Source: Porphyromonadaceae bacterium (GTDB lineage: Bacteria; Bacteroidota; Bacteroidia; Bacteroidales; UBA12481). Taken from it: a stretch of 51,328 nt of DNA. Positions 6,285-47,549 of the stretch are shown piece after piece. Positions within the stretch are counted from its first letter, which is position 1, and every line of letters starts with the position of its first letter. Below the pieces are notes generated by a model. That model was not told where the DNA came from, made no database searches, and saw only the letters and a program-made list of their open reading frames with translations. Position numbers and translations under genes: made by a program. Where the stretch lies: assembly GCA_007280905.1 (NCBI GenBank), contig QYQM01000117.1:1-51328 (forward strand). Direction: 5' to 3'.

Positions 6285-8570
6285 TTATCCGATCGGCAGA
6301 TGTGGCCAAACCAATGGCGGAGCATTCAACCATTCCGCAATCGAAAATGGATCAGTAGTGGAGGACCCATGGGTACTCCCGGCTGCCATTCCGCAGGTAT
6401 CCTCCCATATTGCCAGCCGGATTTCATGAATTCCGATATCCATATATTTATGCGACCTGCCATTGTTCAGATCATAACCCTGTTCATGGCAATAGGCAGC
6501 ACTCCGGAGGACTGACAGCCGAACCTCTTTTCCGTCGAAGTCGAAGCCGTGCAGGCCGGAGTGGGCGATATATTTGCGATGGTCGTGGGTTATCGGTTGT
6601 GGGTTATCGATTGTCGGTAGTGGGTTGTCGGTTGATTCCAGCGTAATCCAGGTTCCGTGCACATACTCTTGTCCGTCTGCCGGAAATTCTACGGCACCGC
6701 CAGGTATTTGGGCAATTAGTCGCGGATTTTTCATCCCGGTGGGTATGGCCAGTTTTAGCCGTTTTTGCTCTTCATTCCATTGAATGCGGATTTTGTACTC
6801 TGTAACGTGCCATTCGGCATAGACAATGCGATGAACGATTATTTTACTATGACGAAAGATCAAAGTAAATTCATAGATATTTCGAACAACTCCGTTTTCG
6901 ATGATCCGCTCGTTATGCTCTGCCTCAAACTTACCTGCTACCTCACGCCATGCCCATGTGTTGGTGCCCCAGGAATCGGCTTTATCGCGGAGAACGAGGA
7001 ACCTGACCTCCCCCTGCCCCAGAAGTATCTCCCCTTGCGCCCTCCTTAGGAAGGTGGGGGAGGTACCTTCAGTGGGCTTGAGATAGAAATGATGCACTCC
7101 TTCACTGAGATCCTTCGCCAGGAACGAAATCTTTCTGCGCCAGCGGTGGAAAGGCAGCCGGGCTTCGGGCTGTTCTTCCTGGCAGGGGATCTCATTGCCT
7201 TGCCGATCGTATAATTTGAGTACCCATTCGCCTTCCCAGAAGGGCCGGTAATCACTCATGCATTCGAACTCTACAGGGAAAGTGGTAAGTCCGGGATTTG
7301 AATGGAATACAGTTACCGGAATATGAGCTTTAAGCGGTTCAACAGATTGATTAATAGCAGTGATCGATTCCATATTTATTCGGCGGATATTCTCCAGGGC
7401 CCGGCCATATAAATCAAGCGCATCCTGCTCCGCCTGCTCTGTGCATGATCCGGTCAGGATATCATGAAAATCGTTAAAGAGGATGTCGCGCCAGATATCA
7501 GAGACCTCCTTCTGCGCAGGTACCTCCCCCGGCTCACAAAGGACCTCCCCCTGCCCCCTCCTTAGAAAGGAGGTGGTGGGAGCACCTGTATAATTTTCTA
7601 CTGAAGGAAAGCAGGAGCTGGAAGCCCCCTCCTTCATAAGGAGGAGGTTGGGGGAGGTACTTCTGGGGTGGCAGTATCGAACAAGTCTTTCAGCCTGTAC
7701 CGCAGCGCCACTGGCTTCGGCGGCTTTGCGCTTGAGGCGGGCGAGCGAGGTGTAACAGCCGGTAAAAACCCGCTGAAGACCGCCTTCATATACCGGTAAT
7801 CCGGTAATCAGCGACTTGATGGCTTCGTAAAAGTGGTCGGTGGTGCTGTGAATGAACTCTATACGATTCTCGTTCGCTGAGAACTCCCGGATCCGATCGA
7901 GATCGGTACGGGTGGCGCCGCCGCCATGATCACCGAGGCCCCAAAAGAGTGCGACATCGCGACCACGCTCCAGAGCCAGATTGGTGGCTTCAGTCAGCCT
8001 CTGTGTGATGTTTTTCCGCTCGGTATGATAGAGCCCGATTTCAATCCGATAGGCAGGGATCGTGCAGTCATTCAAGCCTTTCCACCGATACAGGCTGTCA
8101 GGTAAATCGAGAAATTCTTTTTCTGGCCGTTGGTGGATATAAAGTTCATAGCCAAAATCACAGAGAAGTTTGGGCAAACCGGCCGGGTGGCCAAAGGAAT
8201 CGAAGTTGTAGGCCACCCTGGGCTCAACACCAAATTCTGTTTTGAAAAAATCGCGGCCAAACCGGATGTGCCGCACCAGGTTTTCGTAAGGAGGGAGATT
8301 AACATCAGGTTGCAAGTACCAACCCCCGGCAATGAACCAGCGGTTTTGCTCAACAAGATCCCTGATCTCGTGGAATAATCGGGTGTCATATTTCTGAACC
8401 CACTGATACAAAATGGCTTCATTATGATTAAATATCAGTTCCGGATATTCATGGATGATTTCCACTGCGTTCCGGAAAGTGGCAATAGCTTCTGAGCAGC
8501 CTTCGGTCCAGCGCCACTGCCAAACCGGATCGAGATGCGCGTTACAGATCAGGTGAACTCTATTTTTCAT
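6285..8570 (-). CDS. GH38 alpha-mannosidase carrying repeat-derived inserts
   Basis: About 761 residues from the ATG at 8570. That start overlaps the symporter stop by 11 bases and gives MKNRVHLICNAHLDPVW; the upstream ATG at 8612 lies within the symporter. Zinc and catalytic residues of GH38 are visible: H12 and D14 (AHLDPVW), nucleophile D124 (YNFDSFGH) and H369 (NDFHD). No signal peptide is seen, so it is probably cytosolic. Three tracts match non-coding repeat families: about residues 302-355 (bases 7519-7660), a shorter one at 7005-7064, and a TTATCGGTTGTGGG tract at 6585-6635. The protein ends at PLVWPHLPIG, earlier than I would expect, so the last beta domain may be truncated. If it folds, it would release mannose from alpha-mannosides. 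Confidence 0.88.
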   Translation of the reverse strand: MKNRVHLICNAHLDPVWQWRWTEGCSEAIATFRNAVEIIHEYPELIFNHNEAILYQWVQKYDTRLFHEIRDLVEQNRWFIAGGWYLQPDVNLPPYENLVRHIRFGRDFFKTEFGVEPRVAYNFDSFGHPAGLPKLLCDFGYELYIHQRPEKEFLDLPDSLYRWKGLNDCTIPAYRIEIGLYHTERKNITQRLTEATNLALERGRDVALFWGLGDHGGGATRTDLDRIREFSANENRIEFIHSTTDHFYEAIKSLITGLPVYEGGLQRVFTGCYTSLARLKRKAAEASGAAVQAERLVRYCHPRSTSPNLLLMKEGASSSCFPSVENYTGAPTTSFLRRGQGEVLCEPGEVPAQKEVSDIWRDILFNDFHDILTGSCTEQAEQDALDLYGRALENIRRINMESITAINQSVEPLKAHIPVTVFHSNPGLTTFPVEFECMSDYRPFWEGEWVLKLYDRQGNEIPCQEEQPEARLPFHRWRRKISFLAKDLSEGVHHFYLKPTEGTSPTFLRRAQGEILLGQGEVRFLVLRDKADSWGTNTWAWREVAGKFEAEHNERIIENGVVRNIYEFTLIFRHSKIIVHRIVYAEWHVTEYKIRIQWNEEQKRLKLAIPTGMKNPRLIAQIPGGAVEFPADGQEYVHGTWITLESTDNPLPTIDNPQPITHDHRKYIAHSGLHGFDFDGKEVRLSVLRSAAYCHEQGYDLNNGRSHKYMDIGIHEIRLAIWEDTCGMAAGSTHGSSTTDPFSIAEWLNAPPLVWPHLPIG
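6585..6635. repeat. TTATCGGTTGT word-repeat inside GH38 gene
   Basis: Degenerate tandem GGGTTATCGGTTGTGGG, TTATCGATTGTCGG, TAGTGGGTTGTCGG, translated in frame on the minus strand as a stretch rich in N, P, T and D just before the last strands of GH38. The words match the intergenic tracts at 3405 and 12140. Confidence 0.75.
7005..7064. repeat. short copy of GGTACC-ended palindromic element inside GH38
   Basis: Starts GACCTCCCCCTGCCCC and ends GGTGGGGGAGGTACC, so the two ends are inverted copies of each other. It contains the CCCTCCTTAGGAAGG core also present in the longer copy at 7519-7660. It is read in frame in GH38, giving a stretch that includes FLRRAQGE, a near repeat of FLRRGQGE from the longer copy. 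Confidence 0.75.
7519..7660. mobile_element. MITE-like palindromic element inserted in frame in GH38
   Basis: A 142-base unit bounded by GGTACCTCCCCC and GGGGGAGGTAC. It has inner hairpins (CCCCCTCCTTAGAAAGGAGG and CCCCCTCCTTCATAAGGAGG) and a centre reading GGAAAGCAGGAGCT. The intergenic element at 45897-46000 has matching ends and the centre GGAAAGCAGGTGCT, so these are two copies of one family. It has no coding capacity of its own. It adds about 47 residues in the helical linker of GH38 before DIWRDILFNDFHD. Mobility is inferred from copy and position; no transposase is in the window. Confidence 0.7.
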
Positions 8571-10323
8571 CTTTGGAAGGAAGATTTTTATACCAGGTAA
8601 AATAAAGTACAACCATCACGGCTGCCATAATTAGTGCTACTGTCCAGAACTGGGGCCACTTCCGCAGGAATAGGTAGAACGGGAGAAGCGCTACCGTAAA
8701 CTGGAACACGGGAGCGATCAGTCCGTTAATGGCATCCCACATGGGTTCCTTGTCATTGGCCTTCATAAGTCCCAGTGCAACAGATTCTTTGCGGATGGGT
8801 CCCCAGAAACCGAAGGGTTTAACTTTACTGTAGAATTTCACCAGTATCTGTTTATCGGTTGGCTTGACTATGAATCCGATTGCTACCGTAATCACCAGGC
8901 TCGAAATAATATTGATGCCCAGTGAGTTGGTTCCTGATATCGATCCGAAGAAAACTTTCTGGATGACAATAAAGACAGCTGTGCCGATCATGCTCCATAC
9001 AAAGGCTTTGGCACTGAAACGCCACCAGTGCCAGCGCATGGTGGCCGGTACCAGGATCATCGTAACCACTACGAAAATCATGGTTTCCCAGGCGGAGATG
9101 ACGTTCTCGAAAGCCAGACTGAAGACGAATCCCAATAAAAGTGCACATATCGAAGCCAGCTGACCGATCCGGATGACCTTTTTCTCGGGCAGTTTTTTAA
9201 ATATATAGCGTTTGAGAAAATCATTGGTGACGACGTTGGCTGTGATGTTAATCATCGCGTCGAGGGTCGACATCAAAGCCGCCAGCATGACCGCGAGAAA
9301 GAGGCCGCTAACCCCGATCGGCAACCTGGAAATCACCAGAGGCAATATTTTTTCGGCGTCAATATTTGTTGTTGCTGTACCTAAAATGGAGATCCCGAAC
9401 AACAGGAAGGCAATAGCGATGATCCAGCGGAGGATGAACATAGCAGTCCACATACCTCCGGCCAGTGCGGCATCGCGTGGGGTACGGGTAGTCAGGAAGA
9501 ACTGGAAATCCCACACGTTTGGTCCGGCTAAAACCCTGAACATCATCCAGGTGAACCCGATAATCATCAGTGGGCCAAATAGATTGAAATGCTGGTACGC
9601 CATCGGGGTAGAATCCAGATAGCCCGGCCACAGGTGCCAGTTTAAGGCCAGTGAGCTCCAACCCTCCGGCTTTGAAGCGGCCAGATCTGCGCCGATTCCA
9701 CCGGTAAATATCATAATAATCATAACGATTGCCCCCACAGCAATCAAGGCCGTTTGCAGGATATCCGTGATAACCACCCCGTAAAATCCGCCGAGCGTTA
9801 CGTAAATACCCACCACCCCAAATACGATCAGGGTGGATTGCCAGCGGGTAAGCGGGAAGAAATCTTCAGCAAATTTTCCGATCCCGACAGCCATGTATAT
9901 CAGGTTAAAAATCATCAGAACGAGAAGAAAAGTAGCCGATGCCAGCCTGGCCATTTCGGCATCCCGGTCCTTTCCAAAACGGGTTTCGTTCCATTCGGCA
10001 AAGGACATAACACCGGAGCGACGGATCCACTTGGCCTGGAAAGCCATATAACCGGCCATCATAAACCATCCCCAGAAAATGTTAGTCATCCAAACGGTTT
10101 TCAGTCCAAGATAAAACAGCGCCCCAACCAGTGCCATGATACCGGCAATATCGATATAGCTTGAGCACCCTGCTATCCCGAGCACCCACCACGGCAAACT
10201 CCGCCCGGCCAGGAAGTAATTATCGAGACCTGATGAGGCCTTCTTACGGATCAGGAATCCCACCATCGCCACCATCACCAGGTAAACGATCACAATTGTC
10301 AGGTCAATCCAGTTGAGGTTCAT
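8560..10323 (-). CDS. sodium:solute symporter (SSS family)
   Basis: Membrane carrier of 587 residues with about 13-14 hydrophobic helices, using a Na+ gradient to import a sugar or related solute. The N-terminus MNLNWIDLTIVIVYLVMVAMV and the following DNYFLAGRSLPWW are typical of the SSS family, as is the LAALMSTLDAMINITANVV segment. I chose the ATG at 10323 because the next one upstream (10365) only adds a polar leader. It is the first gene of the minus-strand operon with GH38 and GH78, which suggests import of mannose, rhamnose or a released oligosaccharide. It diverges from the kinase gene across a gap of about 110 bases that probably holds both promoters. Confidence 0.9.
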   Translation of the reverse strand: MNLNWIDLTIVIVYLVMVAMVGFLIRKKASSGLDNYFLAGRSLPWWVLGIAGCSSYIDIAGIMALVGALFYLGLKTVWMTNIFWGWFMMAGYMAFQAKWIRRSGVMSFAEWNETRFGKDRDAEMARLASATFLLVLMIFNLIYMAVGIGKFAEDFFPLTRWQSTLIVFGVVGIYVTLGGFYGVVITDILQTALIAVGAIVMIIMIFTGGIGADLAASKPEGWSSLALNWHLWPGYLDSTPMAYQHFNLFGPLMIIGFTWMMFRVLAGPNVWDFQFFLTTRTPRDAALAGGMWTAMFILRWIIAIAFLLFGISILGTATTNIDAEKILPLVISRLPIGVSGLFLAVMLAALMSTLDAMINITANVVTNDFLKRYIFKKLPEKKVIRIGQLASICALLLGFVFSLAFENVISAWETMIFVVVTMILVPATMRWHWWRFSAKAFVWSMIGTAVFIVIQKVFFGSISGTNSLGINIISSLVITVAIGFIVKPTDKQILVKFYSKVKPFGFWGPIRKESVALGLMKANDKEPMWDAINGLIAPVFQFTVALLPFYLFLRKWPQFWTVALIMAAVMVVLYFTWYKNLPSKDEK

Positions 10324-34586: not shown

Positions 34587-34969
34587 ACGTTGTCGGTGGT
34601 GATAGTTGTGATGGTTGTGATGGTTGCCCGTTTTGGTCAGGTAGAGGACAAATCTGCGAATCAACCGGGCAGGCGCAAGGCCTGCCCCTTCATTACGGTT
34701 CGATGGAAAAGATAAAGGAAGATTCGGAGTAGCGTGATGAGATCCCGGCCTGCGCCGGGATGACAAAAGCCGCTGGGGAAATAACTAAAATTGGGCTAAA
34801 GCCCATTGTAATCAATTCATCATCAATCCACTACATAAATGTAGTGGCAACTAATAATGAACACTGTGGTATCATTTATCTCCTCACTCCCGTAACTTCC
34901 TCACTCCCTCACGCCCCCACTTCCTCTCTCACGTTCTTTTCTTTCTTCCTGTCTTCTTGTCATCCGTCT
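34587..34969. repeat. 383-base gap built of stacked short repeats
   Basis: No gene is seen. From left to right: a TTGTCGGTGGTGATAGTTGT-type word tandem (34590-34628), a GGGCAGGCGCAAGGCCTGCCC palindrome (34667-34687), a TCCCGGCCTGCGCCGGGA palindrome (34743-34760), GGGCTAAAGCCC (34793-34804), CCACTACATAAATGTAGTGG (34828-34847), and a CCTCACTCCCTCACG word tract from about 34880. Any of the palindromes could stop transcription between the convergent genes. At least five different families sit side by side. Confidence 0.8.
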
Positions 34970-44455: not shown

Positions 44456-45895
44456 ATGAACGAAGAAATCAGGACCAAAGGTTTGGATATCGAAGAAATC
44501 ATGGAACGGGCGCGGATATCGGGCGAGAAGTTCAGTACCTATTCTCAGGCACGTGTGGACCAGATAGTTAAAGCAGTATATGAGGCGGGATTTAACAACA
44601 GGGTGCACTTGGCAAAGATGGCTCATGAGGAGACGGGGATCGGCAAATGGCAGGATAAGGTATCGAAAAATGTAATCGCCACCCGCTATGTATATCAGGA
44701 TATTAAAGATTTAAAAACTGCCGGAATTATCAGGGAAGACCCGGAAAGCGGTATAACAGAAGTGGCGAAACCCATCGGACCGATCTTTGCGATGACTCCT
44801 ATTACCAATCCCACTTCGACGGCACTATTCAAGATCCTGATCTCGATGAAAACCCGGAATCCGATCATCATACGGCCGCACGGATCGGCAAAGAAATGTA
44901 CCTGCGAAGCGGCCCGGATCTGCTACGAAGCTGCTGTTGAGGCTGGTGCCCCGGAAGATTGCATTCAGTGGATCAGACGGTCGACACCCGAAGAGACTCT
45001 TGAAATGATGGGCCATAAGCTGGTAGCGTTGGTGCTGGCTACCGGATCGGTCAGCCTGGTCAAGTCGGCCTACAGCTCAGGAAATCCGGCTATTGGCGTT
45101 GGCCCGGGAAATGTGCCGGTATACGTGGGACAAAGTGCCGACTTAGCCTTTGCCGCTGAACAGATTATACTTTCAAAAACATTTGATTACGGTACTGTCT
45201 GCGCCAGTGAACAGTCGTTGGTCATTAAGGCCACCAAGGCTGATGAGCTGATCGCTGAATTCAAAAAGCAGAAGGCCTATTTCCTGAATGATGCCGAGAA
45301 AAGGAGGCTGGAAGAGGTAGCTTTCAATAAGATACAGAAATCAATGAGCATCGATGTGATCGGTCAGCCGGCGCACAAAATTGCTGCCATGGCCGGGATT
45401 GATGTCCCGGAGGATACAACGATTTTAATTGTCCGTTATGCCAATCATGAGGTGGGTATCAAATATCCCCTTTCGCTCGAGATCCTGGCACCGATCCTCG
45501 CGATGTATGTCGTGGATGACTTCATAGAGGCTATCAATATGTGCAAGAGGATTGTCAGTTACGGCGGGATGGGGCATACCATCAGCATTTTTTCCAATGA
45601 GGAGGACAAAATCATGTATTTTGCCGAGGTAACCAATGCCGGGAGGTTGCTAGTCAACACTCCTGCCTCACAGGGAGCCCTGGGCGGCACTTACAACGGC
45701 TTGCAGCCATCGCTTACCCTGGCAACCGGAGCCGGTGGGAAAAATATCACCACGGATAATATCACGGCCAGACATCTGCTAAATATCCAGCGGCTGGCCC
45801 GCCGGACCTTTATTCCCTGCAACCCTGATCTGACGGATATTTACCTGGATGAATCGATTGATGCACAGAGGATAGATGATGAGTGCGGGAGGTAA
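44456..45895 (+). CDS. CoA-acylating aldehyde dehydrogenase (EutE/AdhE-N type)
   Basis: 479 residues that convert an aldehyde to its acyl-CoA with NAD+ (acetaldehyde or a related short aldehyde). GPIFAMTPITNPTSTALFK (108-126), RNPIIIRPHGSAKK (134-147) and TFDYGTVCASEQS (242-254) with catalytic C249 are diagnostic of the acylating subgroup. There is no iron alcohol dehydrogenase domain, so it is not AdhE itself, and no microcompartment genes are near. The start is supported by GGAGAGG 9 bases upstream. It is followed by a palindromic element and then GH30. Confidence 0.92.
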   Translation: MNEEIRTKGLDIEEIMERARISGEKFSTYSQARVDQIVKAVYEAGFNNRVHLAKMAHEETGIGKWQDKVSKNVIATRYVYQDIKDLKTAGIIREDPESGITEVAKPIGPIFAMTPITNPTSTALFKILISMKTRNPIIIRPHGSAKKCTCEAARICYEAAVEAGAPEDCIQWIRRSTPEETLEMMGHKLVALVLATGSVSLVKSAYSSGNPAIGVGPGNVPVYVGQSADLAFAAEQIILSKTFDYGTVCASEQSLVIKATKADELIAEFKKQKAYFLNDAEKRRLEEVAFNKIQKSMSIDVIGQPAHKIAAMAGIDVPEDTTILIVRYANHEVGIKYPLSLEILAPILAMYVVDDFIEAINMCKRIVSYGGMGHTISIFSNEEDKIMYFAEVTNAGRLLVNTPASQGALGGTYNGLQPSLTLATGAGGKNITTDNITARHLLNIQRLARRTFIPCNPDLTDIYLDESIDAQRIDDECGR

Positions 45896-45896
45896 A

Positions 45897-46000
45897 GTAC
45901 CCACCCCAACTCCTCCCTCGACCAGGGAGGGGCTATGCTCCGAGGGAAAGCAGGTGCTCATTCCCCCTCCCTGTTTCAGGGAGGGATGGGGGTGGGTACC
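45897..46000. mobile_element. MITE-like GGTACC-ended palindromic element (intergenic copy)
   Basis: 104 bases, from GTACCCACCCC to GGGGGTGGGTACC. Near-perfect terminal inverted repeats and inner hairpins CCTCCCTCGACCAGGGAGG and CCCTCCCTGTTTCAGGGAGG are present, with the centre GAGGGAAAGCAGGTGCTCA. The centre matches the copy inside GH38 (7519-7660), GGAAAGCAGGAGCT. No transposase or coding capacity. It starts 1 base after the aldehyde dehydrogenase stop. Confidence 0.75.
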
Positions 46001-46076: not shown

Positions 46077-47549
46077 ATGAAAAAGGCTCTTACCCTCCTT
46101 ATTATCAGCTTCCTAACATTCTGTACAATCCCTAAACAAGCCGATACCCCAACCGTTTCCGCGAATAAAAACGCATCCTTCAGCCTGGAAGGGAAGAAAG
46201 TGATCGTTTATACCACCGCCGATAGCACCAATTACCACCTGACGGCCACTGATACCCTGACCTTTTCCGCTTTTGGGCAACCGCTGGAAACCCAGCCCGG
46301 CGTATTTGTCGATCCGGGGCACCGGTTCCAGACTTTCCTCGGGATCGGAGGGGCCTTCACCGATGCAGCAGCCGAAACTTTTGCCCGGCTACCGGCCGCG
46401 AGGCAATCGGAATTTTTGCTGGCCTGTTTCGACTCGGTCAATGGAATCGGCTACACGTGGGGCCGGACTCACATGAACAGCTGCGATTTTTCGAGCGACA
46501 TGTACACCTATGTGGAGGATGGCGACAAAGAGCTGGCCACCTTCAGCATTGCACATGATGAAAAGTACAAAATCCCTTTGATCAGAAAGGCCATGCAAAC
46601 GGCTGGCAAACTGAACCTGTTCATCAGTTCCTGGAGCCCCCCGGCCTGGATGAAGGACAATAACGACCGGCTGCACGGCGGCAGACTGAAACCGGAATAT
46701 TTCCAGACCTGGGCCAACTATTATGTCAAATACATCCAGGCGTTGGAAAAGGCTGGTGTGCCGGTGTGGGGACTGACGGTACAGAATGAGCCCATGGCCA
46801 GGCAGATCTGGGAAAGCTGCATGTATACGGCAGAGGAGGAGCGCGACTTTATCAAGAACTTCCTCGGACCCACCCTGCACAGCAACAGCCTGGGCGGTAA
46901 GAAACTCATCGCCTGGGACCACAACCGCGACCTGTTATTCCAACGAGCCTCCACCCTGCTGGGCGATCCCGATGCAGCCAAATACATCTGGGGGATCGGG
47001 TTTCATTGGTATGAAGTCTGGAATGGCGGCCGTCAGTATGAAAACGTTAAACGTACCGCCGAAGCCTTCCCGGAAACCAACCTGCTGCTGACCGAAGCCT
47101 GCAATTATCCGTTCAGCTGGCAGACTTTCGGCCAGTGGAAGTGGGGTGAACAATACGGCGAGAATATGATCCATGATTTCAACAATGGCGCCGTTGCCTG
47201 GACCGACTGGAACATTCTGCTGGATGAGACCGGCGGACCCAACCATGTCAACGGATTCTGCTTTGCCCCCATCCATGCCAAAACACAGGAAGGGACCCTG
47301 CATTACATGAACTCCTATTATTATATCGGCCACTTCTCGAAATTCATCCGGCCAGGGGCCAGGCGGGTGGTCAGTTCATCCAGCCGGGTTCAGCTGCTGA
47401 CTACGGCCTTTCTGAACACCAACGGAAAACTTGCGGTTGTGGTCATGAATCAAACCGGCGAAAAGCTCCCGTACCGGATGTATATTGGCAGCCAGGCAGT
47501 AGAAACCATCAGCCTGCCGCATTCCATCCAGACATTGGTGATTCAGTAA
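46077..47549 (+). CDS. GH30 glycosidase (glucosylceramidase / beta-glucosidase type)
   Basis: 490 residues. An N-terminal signal with a possible lipobox (FLTFC, Cys16; the Phe before Cys is unusual) precedes a GH30 TIM barrel: FQTFLGIGGAFTDAAAE (84-100), ISSWSPPAWMKDN (183-195), GLTVQNEPM with acid/base E238 (232-240) and LLLTEACNYP with nucleophile E340. The barrel is followed by a beta-sandwich as usual. Family members cleave beta-glucosyl or beta-xylosyl bonds. It stands alone after the palindromic element; the next gene on the same strand starts 131 bases later. Confidence 0.93.
   Translation: MKKALTLLIISFLTFCTIPKQADTPTVSANKNASFSLEGKKVIVYTTADSTNYHLTATDTLTFSAFGQPLETQPGVFVDPGHRFQTFLGIGGAFTDAAAETFARLPAARQSEFLLACFDSVNGIGYTWGRTHMNSCDFSSDMYTYVEDGDKELATFSIAHDEKYKIPLIRKAMQTAGKLNLFISSWSPPAWMKDNNDRLHGGRLKPEYFQTWANYYVKYIQALEKAGVPVWGLTVQNEPMARQIWESCMYTAEEERDFIKNFLGPTLHSNSLGGKKLIAWDHNRDLLFQRASTLLGDPDAAKYIWGIGFHWYEVWNGGRQYENVKRTAEAFPETNLLLTEACNYPFSWQTFGQWKWGEQYGENMIHDFNNGAVAWTDWNILLDETGGPNHVNGFCFAPIHAKTQEGTLHYMNSYYYIGHFSKFIRPGARRVVSSSSRVQLLTTAFLNTNGKLAVVVMNQTGEKLPYRMYIGSQAVETISLPHSIQTLVIQ

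Follow-up and report, generated by a model that had tools for sequence, protein, structure and literature searches.

The Rickettsia palindromic elements (RPEs) are repeats that occur in intergenic DNA and also, in frame, inside unrelated genes, whose proteins they lengthen; RPE-1, RPE-4 and RPE-6 are recounted in PMC3733652, a 2013 paper that also reports REP singletons and dimers inside the open reading frames of many species, tRNA synthetases included, and different REPs at about the same recB site in two Xanthomonas species. REPs inside RAYT genes have been described for RAYT subclass 2.4 (PMC6006769). The element analyzed here lies within a GH38 alpha-mannosidase gene of a 51,328-nucleotide stretch of DNA (the window) from a Porphyromonadaceae bacterium. 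The preliminary description of this DNA had likened it to the RPEs, and the likeness holds in placement: palindromes of a dispersed family occur between genes and in frame in several unrelated genes, whose predicted proteins they lengthen. The organism and the arm differ, however, the putative parent carries a DUF559 gene, and several palindrome families use one and the same linker. The intragenic REPs of PMC3733652 are GTAG- or CGTC-tagged, whereas the family described here is GTACC-ended; the recB case is a direct precedent, and the recurrence in GH38, with three families in five of six species, is stronger.

With REPIN/RAYT systems (PMC6006769, PMC3116915) the element shares the inverted doublet of short palindromes and the many dispersed copies, and one RAYT gene with in-frame REPs inside it occurs in the genus (L345, G006); it differs in lacking a RAYT partner and in its foot sequence, the candidate partner here being the DUF559 nuclease. 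Homing endonucleases of the Vsr-like fold (PDB 3r3p) are similar in that they match DUF559 in sequence and that the element holds a small stand-alone nuclease gene, but no intron or intein was seen, palindromic arms bound the element and short gene-less derivatives occur. The initial classification as a MITE-like mobile family is supported. The copies are short, non-autonomous and dispersed, with inverted ends, and a longer element, their putative parent, has a gene between the same ends (contig C76 and, with the gene broken, elements of G005). The gene of the likely parent codes for a DUF559 nuclease and not for a known transposase, no DDE transposase was seen and no target-site duplication was recognised.

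The GH38 frame is free of stops from 6285 to 8612 on the minus strand and encodes 775 residues; it opens with TTG, and the methionine at KMKNRVHL is the probable real start. The predicted protein matches the Pfam profiles Glyco_hydro_38N (E=1.7e-44), Alpha-mann_mid and Glyco_hydro_38C, gene names throughout this work being profile matches. Its predicted structure has a mean pLDDT of 81.6 and a pTM of 0.84, and the stretches with pLDDT below 50 include residues 318-362, at linker site 1, in addition to those given in Table 1. In this model the insert forms a low-confidence loop with helices 291-314 and 365-379 on either side, in agreement with the earlier suggestion that it falls between two folded parts, and we take it to lie in a surface linker as a disordered loop of the predicted fold; low pLDDT is partly expected here because aligned relatives never cover the insert. 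Beyond what had been described before, the gene also contains a second arm, a tandem-repeat linker and an extension (Table 1).

Table 1 Features of the GH38 gene, the palindromic doublets of the window and the occupants of linker site 1 in sister species
Feature	Position	Strand	Basis
GH38 alpha-mannosidase gene	6288..8612	minus	ORF and translation, 775 aa; Pfam profile matches
GH38 extension found only in the window, CGMAAGSTHGSSTTDP; origin not clear	6357..6404	minus	Alignment; pLDDT <50 at residues 740-750
Linker site 3, imperfect short tandem repeats CCGACAACC/CGATAACCC	6567..6647	minus	GATACCC repeats in relatives; pLDDT <50 at 671-675
Linker site 2, second degenerate arm, predicted peptide GTSPTFLRRAQGEIL	7025..7066		Covariance model R1; in frame; pLDDT <50 at 522-533
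MITE-like palindromic doublet, GH38 linker site 1, residues ~318-365	7519..7660		Sequence, fold, genome copies, absence in relatives, pLDDT <50
Extra outer tag GGTACCTCCCCC	7519..7530	+	Sequence; also in isoleucyl-tRNA synthetase copy
Left arm, tag ACCTCCCCC then 23-nt palindrome	7541..7579	+	Covariance model R1, 53.0 bits, E=7.6e-10
Doublet centre GGAAAGCAGGAGCT	7606..7619	+	Pattern search; resembles GGCAAGTGCTC, right subterminal sequence of DUF559-remnant elements
Right arm, inverted	7622..7660	minus	Covariance model R1, 54.4 bits, E=3.3e-10
Intergenic doublet, subfamily B, arms 45897-45935 (+) and 45961-45999 (-)	45897..45999		Between ORFs 44456-45895 and 46077-47549
G006 site 1: shorter type-A doublet
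G004 site 1: single type-B arm
G001 site 1: perfect 28-nt palindrome GTAGAGACAGATAATTATCTGTCTCTAC, GTAG family
G003 site 1: GTCATCCCGGCTAATGCCGGGATCC, CGTC-type palindrome
G005 site 1: without palindrome

At site 1 the insert consists of two 39-nt palindromic arms arranged as an inverted doublet of 142 nt, which amounts to about 47 residues in the GH38 frame. The arms of this copy and of the intergenic one each carry a palindrome built 10-3-10, which in GH38 is 23 nt long and follows the tag. The unit itself is not divisible by three, and the frame is kept by the occupied linker as a whole. The intergenic doublet follows the same plan with a variant arm (ACCCACCCC...CTCCCT), and its arms match covariance model R1 at E=2e-8 and 7e-10; for the arm at site 2 the values are 0.003 and 0.19, one on each strand. 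The folding energy of both doublets was better than that of 200 out of 200 dinucleotide shuffles (z about -3.7 to -5.8), and sequence, fold and covariance model thus agree with the original report of a palindromic unit in GH38 and a matching copy between genes. The arm alignment begins GTACC or GGACC. In several copies the ends continue as the inverted sequence AAGTACC...GGTACTT, with no direct repeat seen by eye, and no clean empty site with a recognisable target duplication was found.

A BLAST search returned 59 matches in the window genome (G000), and a pattern search for the arm returned 32, against none for the reversed pattern; the pattern of the centre motif gave 323 matches against 171 when reversed. 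The covariance model gave 93 matches at E<=1, representing about 37 sites, and since several draft contigs of G000 end in the element the true copy number may be higher. Six of the eight genomes of the genus carry the arm at E<=1e-6, compared with 0 of 52 more distant genomes; among 247 genomes sampled from the class at E<=1e-7, just four more contain the arm (1-4 matches per genome). Further genome copies, as expected of a mobile family, are therefore present. An Rfam search with both doublets yielded one weak match only, which we take as chance, and a known RNA family was rejected as the identity of the element. Spread by plasmids or phages was rejected as well, the element having no match in phage sequences and one 48-nt partial match, to a Nocardia plasmid, among plasmids.

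The share of sites lying in frame within genes varies among the genomes, at about 5 of 37 in G000, 3 of 4 in G001, 7 of 8 in G004, 8 of 15 in G006, 0 of about 34 in G005 and 0 of 6 in G007, counts that rest on the stretches around matches and on our reading of open frames, and that are uncertain near contig ends, the relatives being draft genomes, mostly metagenomic. The roughly 34 copies of G005 (L286-L316) are almost all intergenic, and because they are near-identical there appears to have been a recent burst in this genome, confined to intergenic DNA. Old copies may survive mostly within genes.

On contig C76 (positions 1-510), an intact ORF of 120 residues matching DUF559 (PF04480, E=3e-24) lies between inverted arms of this family, the only intact DUF559 copy in the genus with these arms on both sides. 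Elements of 431 and 305 nt in G005 and one at C406 contain DUF559 in a broken frame, and DUF559 has an arm directly beside it where contig C147 (G000) ends and also in G172, a genome of another family. A second DUF559 gene on C147 (L214, 3954-4700) lies within a different, 68-nt inverted palindromic arm (CACCTCACCCCCGGCCCCTCTCCC...). The doublet centre is similar to what the subterminal parts of the G005 elements give when joined (GAGCACCTG ... GCAAGTGCTC), a likeness from side-by-side comparison that is short and only suggestive. Residues E21, D59, E70-x-D72-G73 and H76 of the DUF559 protein are invariant in 16 sequences. Against the PDB, the DUF559 profile matches 3hrl, the mobile intron protein 3r3p (7e-8) and, weakly, Vsr (1cw0, 0.03); weak hits on enterotoxin B chains (E >0.2) were set aside as chance. 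Viral contigs contained no DUF559 relative of the C76 protein, and DUF559 was not presented as a mobile element in the titles and opening lines of papers naming it, a search that lay mostly outside subscription papers and preprints.

In order to see how DUF559 is placed elsewhere, we scored flanking inverted repeats at 20 plasmid loci from Cyanobacteriota, Deinococcota and Pseudomonadota, leaving out one more match sited inside a long gene. With a cut-off of 15, matching inverted repeats stood on both sides of 13 of the 20 genes, a pattern shared by 3 of 687 random windows and by none of the 110 other genes scored on three of these plasmids. The repeats reach 114 nt, most are C-rich palindromes, and the left one matches its own right arm. 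The remaining 7 genes have no flanking inverted repeats, and DUF559 therefore occurs in other settings too, including beside defence genes. Six of the loci with inverted repeats (L368, L374, L369, L375, L376 and L381) interrupt runs of suf, transhydrogenase, paa and hpa genes: the neighbours of DUF559 are sufB and sufC in one case, transhydrogenase subunits in another and paaD and paaZ in a third, and in three Deinococcus the gene stands at a different point of the hpa operon each time.

It is possible, if rather doubtful, that DUF559 is a passenger in these structures, or inserts into existing palindromes, and that something else moves the arms. REPs are known targets of insertion sequences (PMC1525189), and in other phyla the arms around DUF559 are of many unrelated sequences, as a passenger would allow. 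The pairing of arms and DUF559 nevertheless recurs in Cyanobacteriota, Deinococcota, Pseudomonadota and Bacteroidota, each left arm matching its own right one, and within the suf, transhydrogenase, paa and hpa operons DUF559 stands alone between such arms. We infer that DUF559 drives the mobility of the arms. A credible case can be made for a new element class, and we hold it an even question whether palindromic, mostly C-rich arms around a gene for a DUF559 (Vsr/homing-endonuclease-like) nuclease, in at least four phyla, form a class of mobile element absent from the papers searched, whose internal-deletion derivatives would be REP-like repeats that enter genes as well as intergenic DNA and write new linkers into proteins.

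An unlikely mobiliser is a RAYT (Y1, HUH) transposase, acting on a classical REP/REPIN and either missing from the assembly or working from elsewhere. The inverted doublet is the form of a REPIN, one of the GH38 sites holds a GTAG palindrome, and the genus possesses a RAYT gene with GTAG palindromes: L345 (G006, contig C15, about 1069-1722), with the motifs NHFH and YIRNNP, is flanked by them and contains them in frame. Yet none of the 13 Y1 matches (PF01797) in seven genomes of the genus (3 in G000 and 10 in six relatives) is flanked by arms of the family, and several of these genes carry hairpins of their own; moreover, the foot of the arm is GTACC and not the GT[AG]G of canonical REPs. RAYT was accordingly rejected as the mobiliser on the evidence of the PF01797 flanks. 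In G004 about 0.9 kb separate a Y1 gene from one arm, which is located inside another gene.

The recurrence of palindromes in GH38 can be followed in the sister species, where orthologues within the genus are 74-77% identical. Alignment of these homologues, as had been proposed, showed that the frame is intact on both sides of the insert and continues across the site without the 47-residue stretch. Site 1, between QAERL and DIWxDILFND, holds a palindrome in 5 of the 6 sister species, from three unrelated families (Table 1); in two further genera of the family the orthologues have none there. The GTAG family to which the G001 palindrome belongs has 15 copies in that genome against 0 in the control, and the CGTC-type family of the G003 palindrome has 14 matches in its genome, likewise against 0. 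A copy of the CGTC-type palindrome, GTCATCCCGGCGCAGGCCGGGATCT, was also observed at 34740-34764 of the window. Even with 250 palindromes per genome, and with species taken as independent, the chance of occupation in at least five of six species is about 8e-11, a generous estimate that is nonetheless a simplification, the species not being truly independent.

One might instead suppose a single ancestral insertion in the linker that later diverged. The type-A palindromes (window species and G006) and the type-B one (G004) might have diverged from one insertion, and at site 2 the palindromic arm is clearly common to G001 and G006, which points to inheritance by descent of some palindromes in GH38; G006 has an additional palindrome, CCCGCGAACGCGGG, at this site. 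A single origin is nonetheless improbable for site 1, where the GTAG palindrome of G001 and the CGTC-type palindrome of G003 belong to different multi-copy families and no simple point-mutation path connects the palindrome families. Since three unrelated families occur there, filling of site 1 by repeated independent insertion is better supported by the sequences than one inherited insert or a conserved protein segment. The same stretch at a conserved position in relatives had been named as an observation that would speak against mobility; the different palindromes found there instead support recurrent insertion.

Other genes are hit in a similar manner. In the isoleucyl-tRNA synthetase gene of G000 (L200, C71:19830-19958) a 129-nt doublet lies in frame directly before FFMAWTTTPWTLP; the same linker contains other repeat-like sequence in four sister species and is short in G007. 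Further in-frame copies of G000 are situated in a nucleoside transporter and in a 655-residue protein, and those of G001, G004 and G006 in glycosyltransferases, a citrate-type transporter, a class-III aminotransferase, an IF-2B-family isomerase and other proteins. It is conceivable, though we consider it very unlikely, that positive selection keeps the insert, because the hairpin slows interdomain translation or because the loop binds something: in GH38 and isoleucyl-tRNA synthetase, inserts are indeed found repeatedly where domains or subdomains meet, but the peptide and its frame are different each time, and the palindrome is absent from GH38 in G005 and from isoleucyl-tRNA synthetase in G007.

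Several other arms touch genes in different ways. At the hisA/hisF junction of G006 (L258, C397:40142-40180) a single open frame extends from the end of HisA across an arm and on into HisF, which could be a gene fusion created by the repeat. The start of a DegT-type aminotransferase gene in G000 (L220, C95:6280-6318) is broken by an arm and a CGTC-type palindrome; the sequence after the arm is apparently unrelated, and the gene is likely decayed or rearranged. Arms at gene ends in the same genome (L217, L218, L221 and L227) appear to provide the final residues and the stop (VPPPAPSL-stop).

Outside the linkers, species comparisons of GH38 give a dN/dS of 0.03-0.09 wherever dS can be measured and synonymous change is unsaturated, which indicates that the gene is under purifying selection. 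Only one of the six frames of the doublet at 7519-7660 is stop-free, and this is the frame that GH38 uses; given both observations, translation of the 47-residue insert is very likely, and GQGEVLCEPGEVPAQK would be one peptide across the insert and its flank. That the insert is left untranslated, in a decaying gene or through ribosome skipping of the hairpin as in phage T4 gene 60, is highly improbable despite the very stable hairpin predicted for the message, because all GH38 copies are in frame, free of stops and under purifying selection, an open frame is not needed in a skipped segment, and isoleucyl-tRNA synthetase, expected to be essential, has the same pattern. The possibility that open frames are built into the doublets by design was rejected: between 0 and 4 of their six frames are stop-free, about as in shuffled sequence, so that survival within genes is better explained by selection after insertion.

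We consider that the GH38 insert is probably a non-autonomous palindromic mobile element in a tolerated linker, whose parent likely consisted of arms and a DUF559 gene. The sequences themselves show dispersed copies, a frame that stays open through the insert, absence of this insert in relatives, different palindromes at one site in sister species, purifying selection on the gene and an intact DUF559 gene enclosed by these arms. The non-autonomous element would be a pair of inverted REP-like arms flanking a short remnant, and it would have entered a surface linker of GH38 in a stop-free orientation and frame and persisted because the approximately 47 extra residues form a tolerated disordered loop; the insert appears to be harmless to the enzyme. 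The same linkers in the sister species seem to have been filled separately by other palindrome families, and such linkers may therefore act as permissive landing sites. The parent would most likely be the same arms around DUF559, a small nuclease whose relatives are Vsr and the catalytic domain of a homing endonuclease from a mobile intron; it may drive movement, probably by cutting DNA into which it is then copied in the course of repair. The doublets would be internal-deletion derivatives of this parent, moved in trans or left behind.

REP-like repeats with a partner other than RAYT have hitherto been without a clear source, and a DUF559 partner would supply one; if true, the partnership would also account for a gene family whose function is at present listed as unknown. 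GH38 and isoleucyl-tRNA synthetase represent a natural experiment, in which the same linker has received unrelated repeats in sister species, and in a single enzyme one can test directly how insertions are tolerated, how disordered loops arise and what becomes of mobile DNA in coding sequence. The findings suggest mobile DNA of a kind that is little known and that makes proteins longer without drawing notice.
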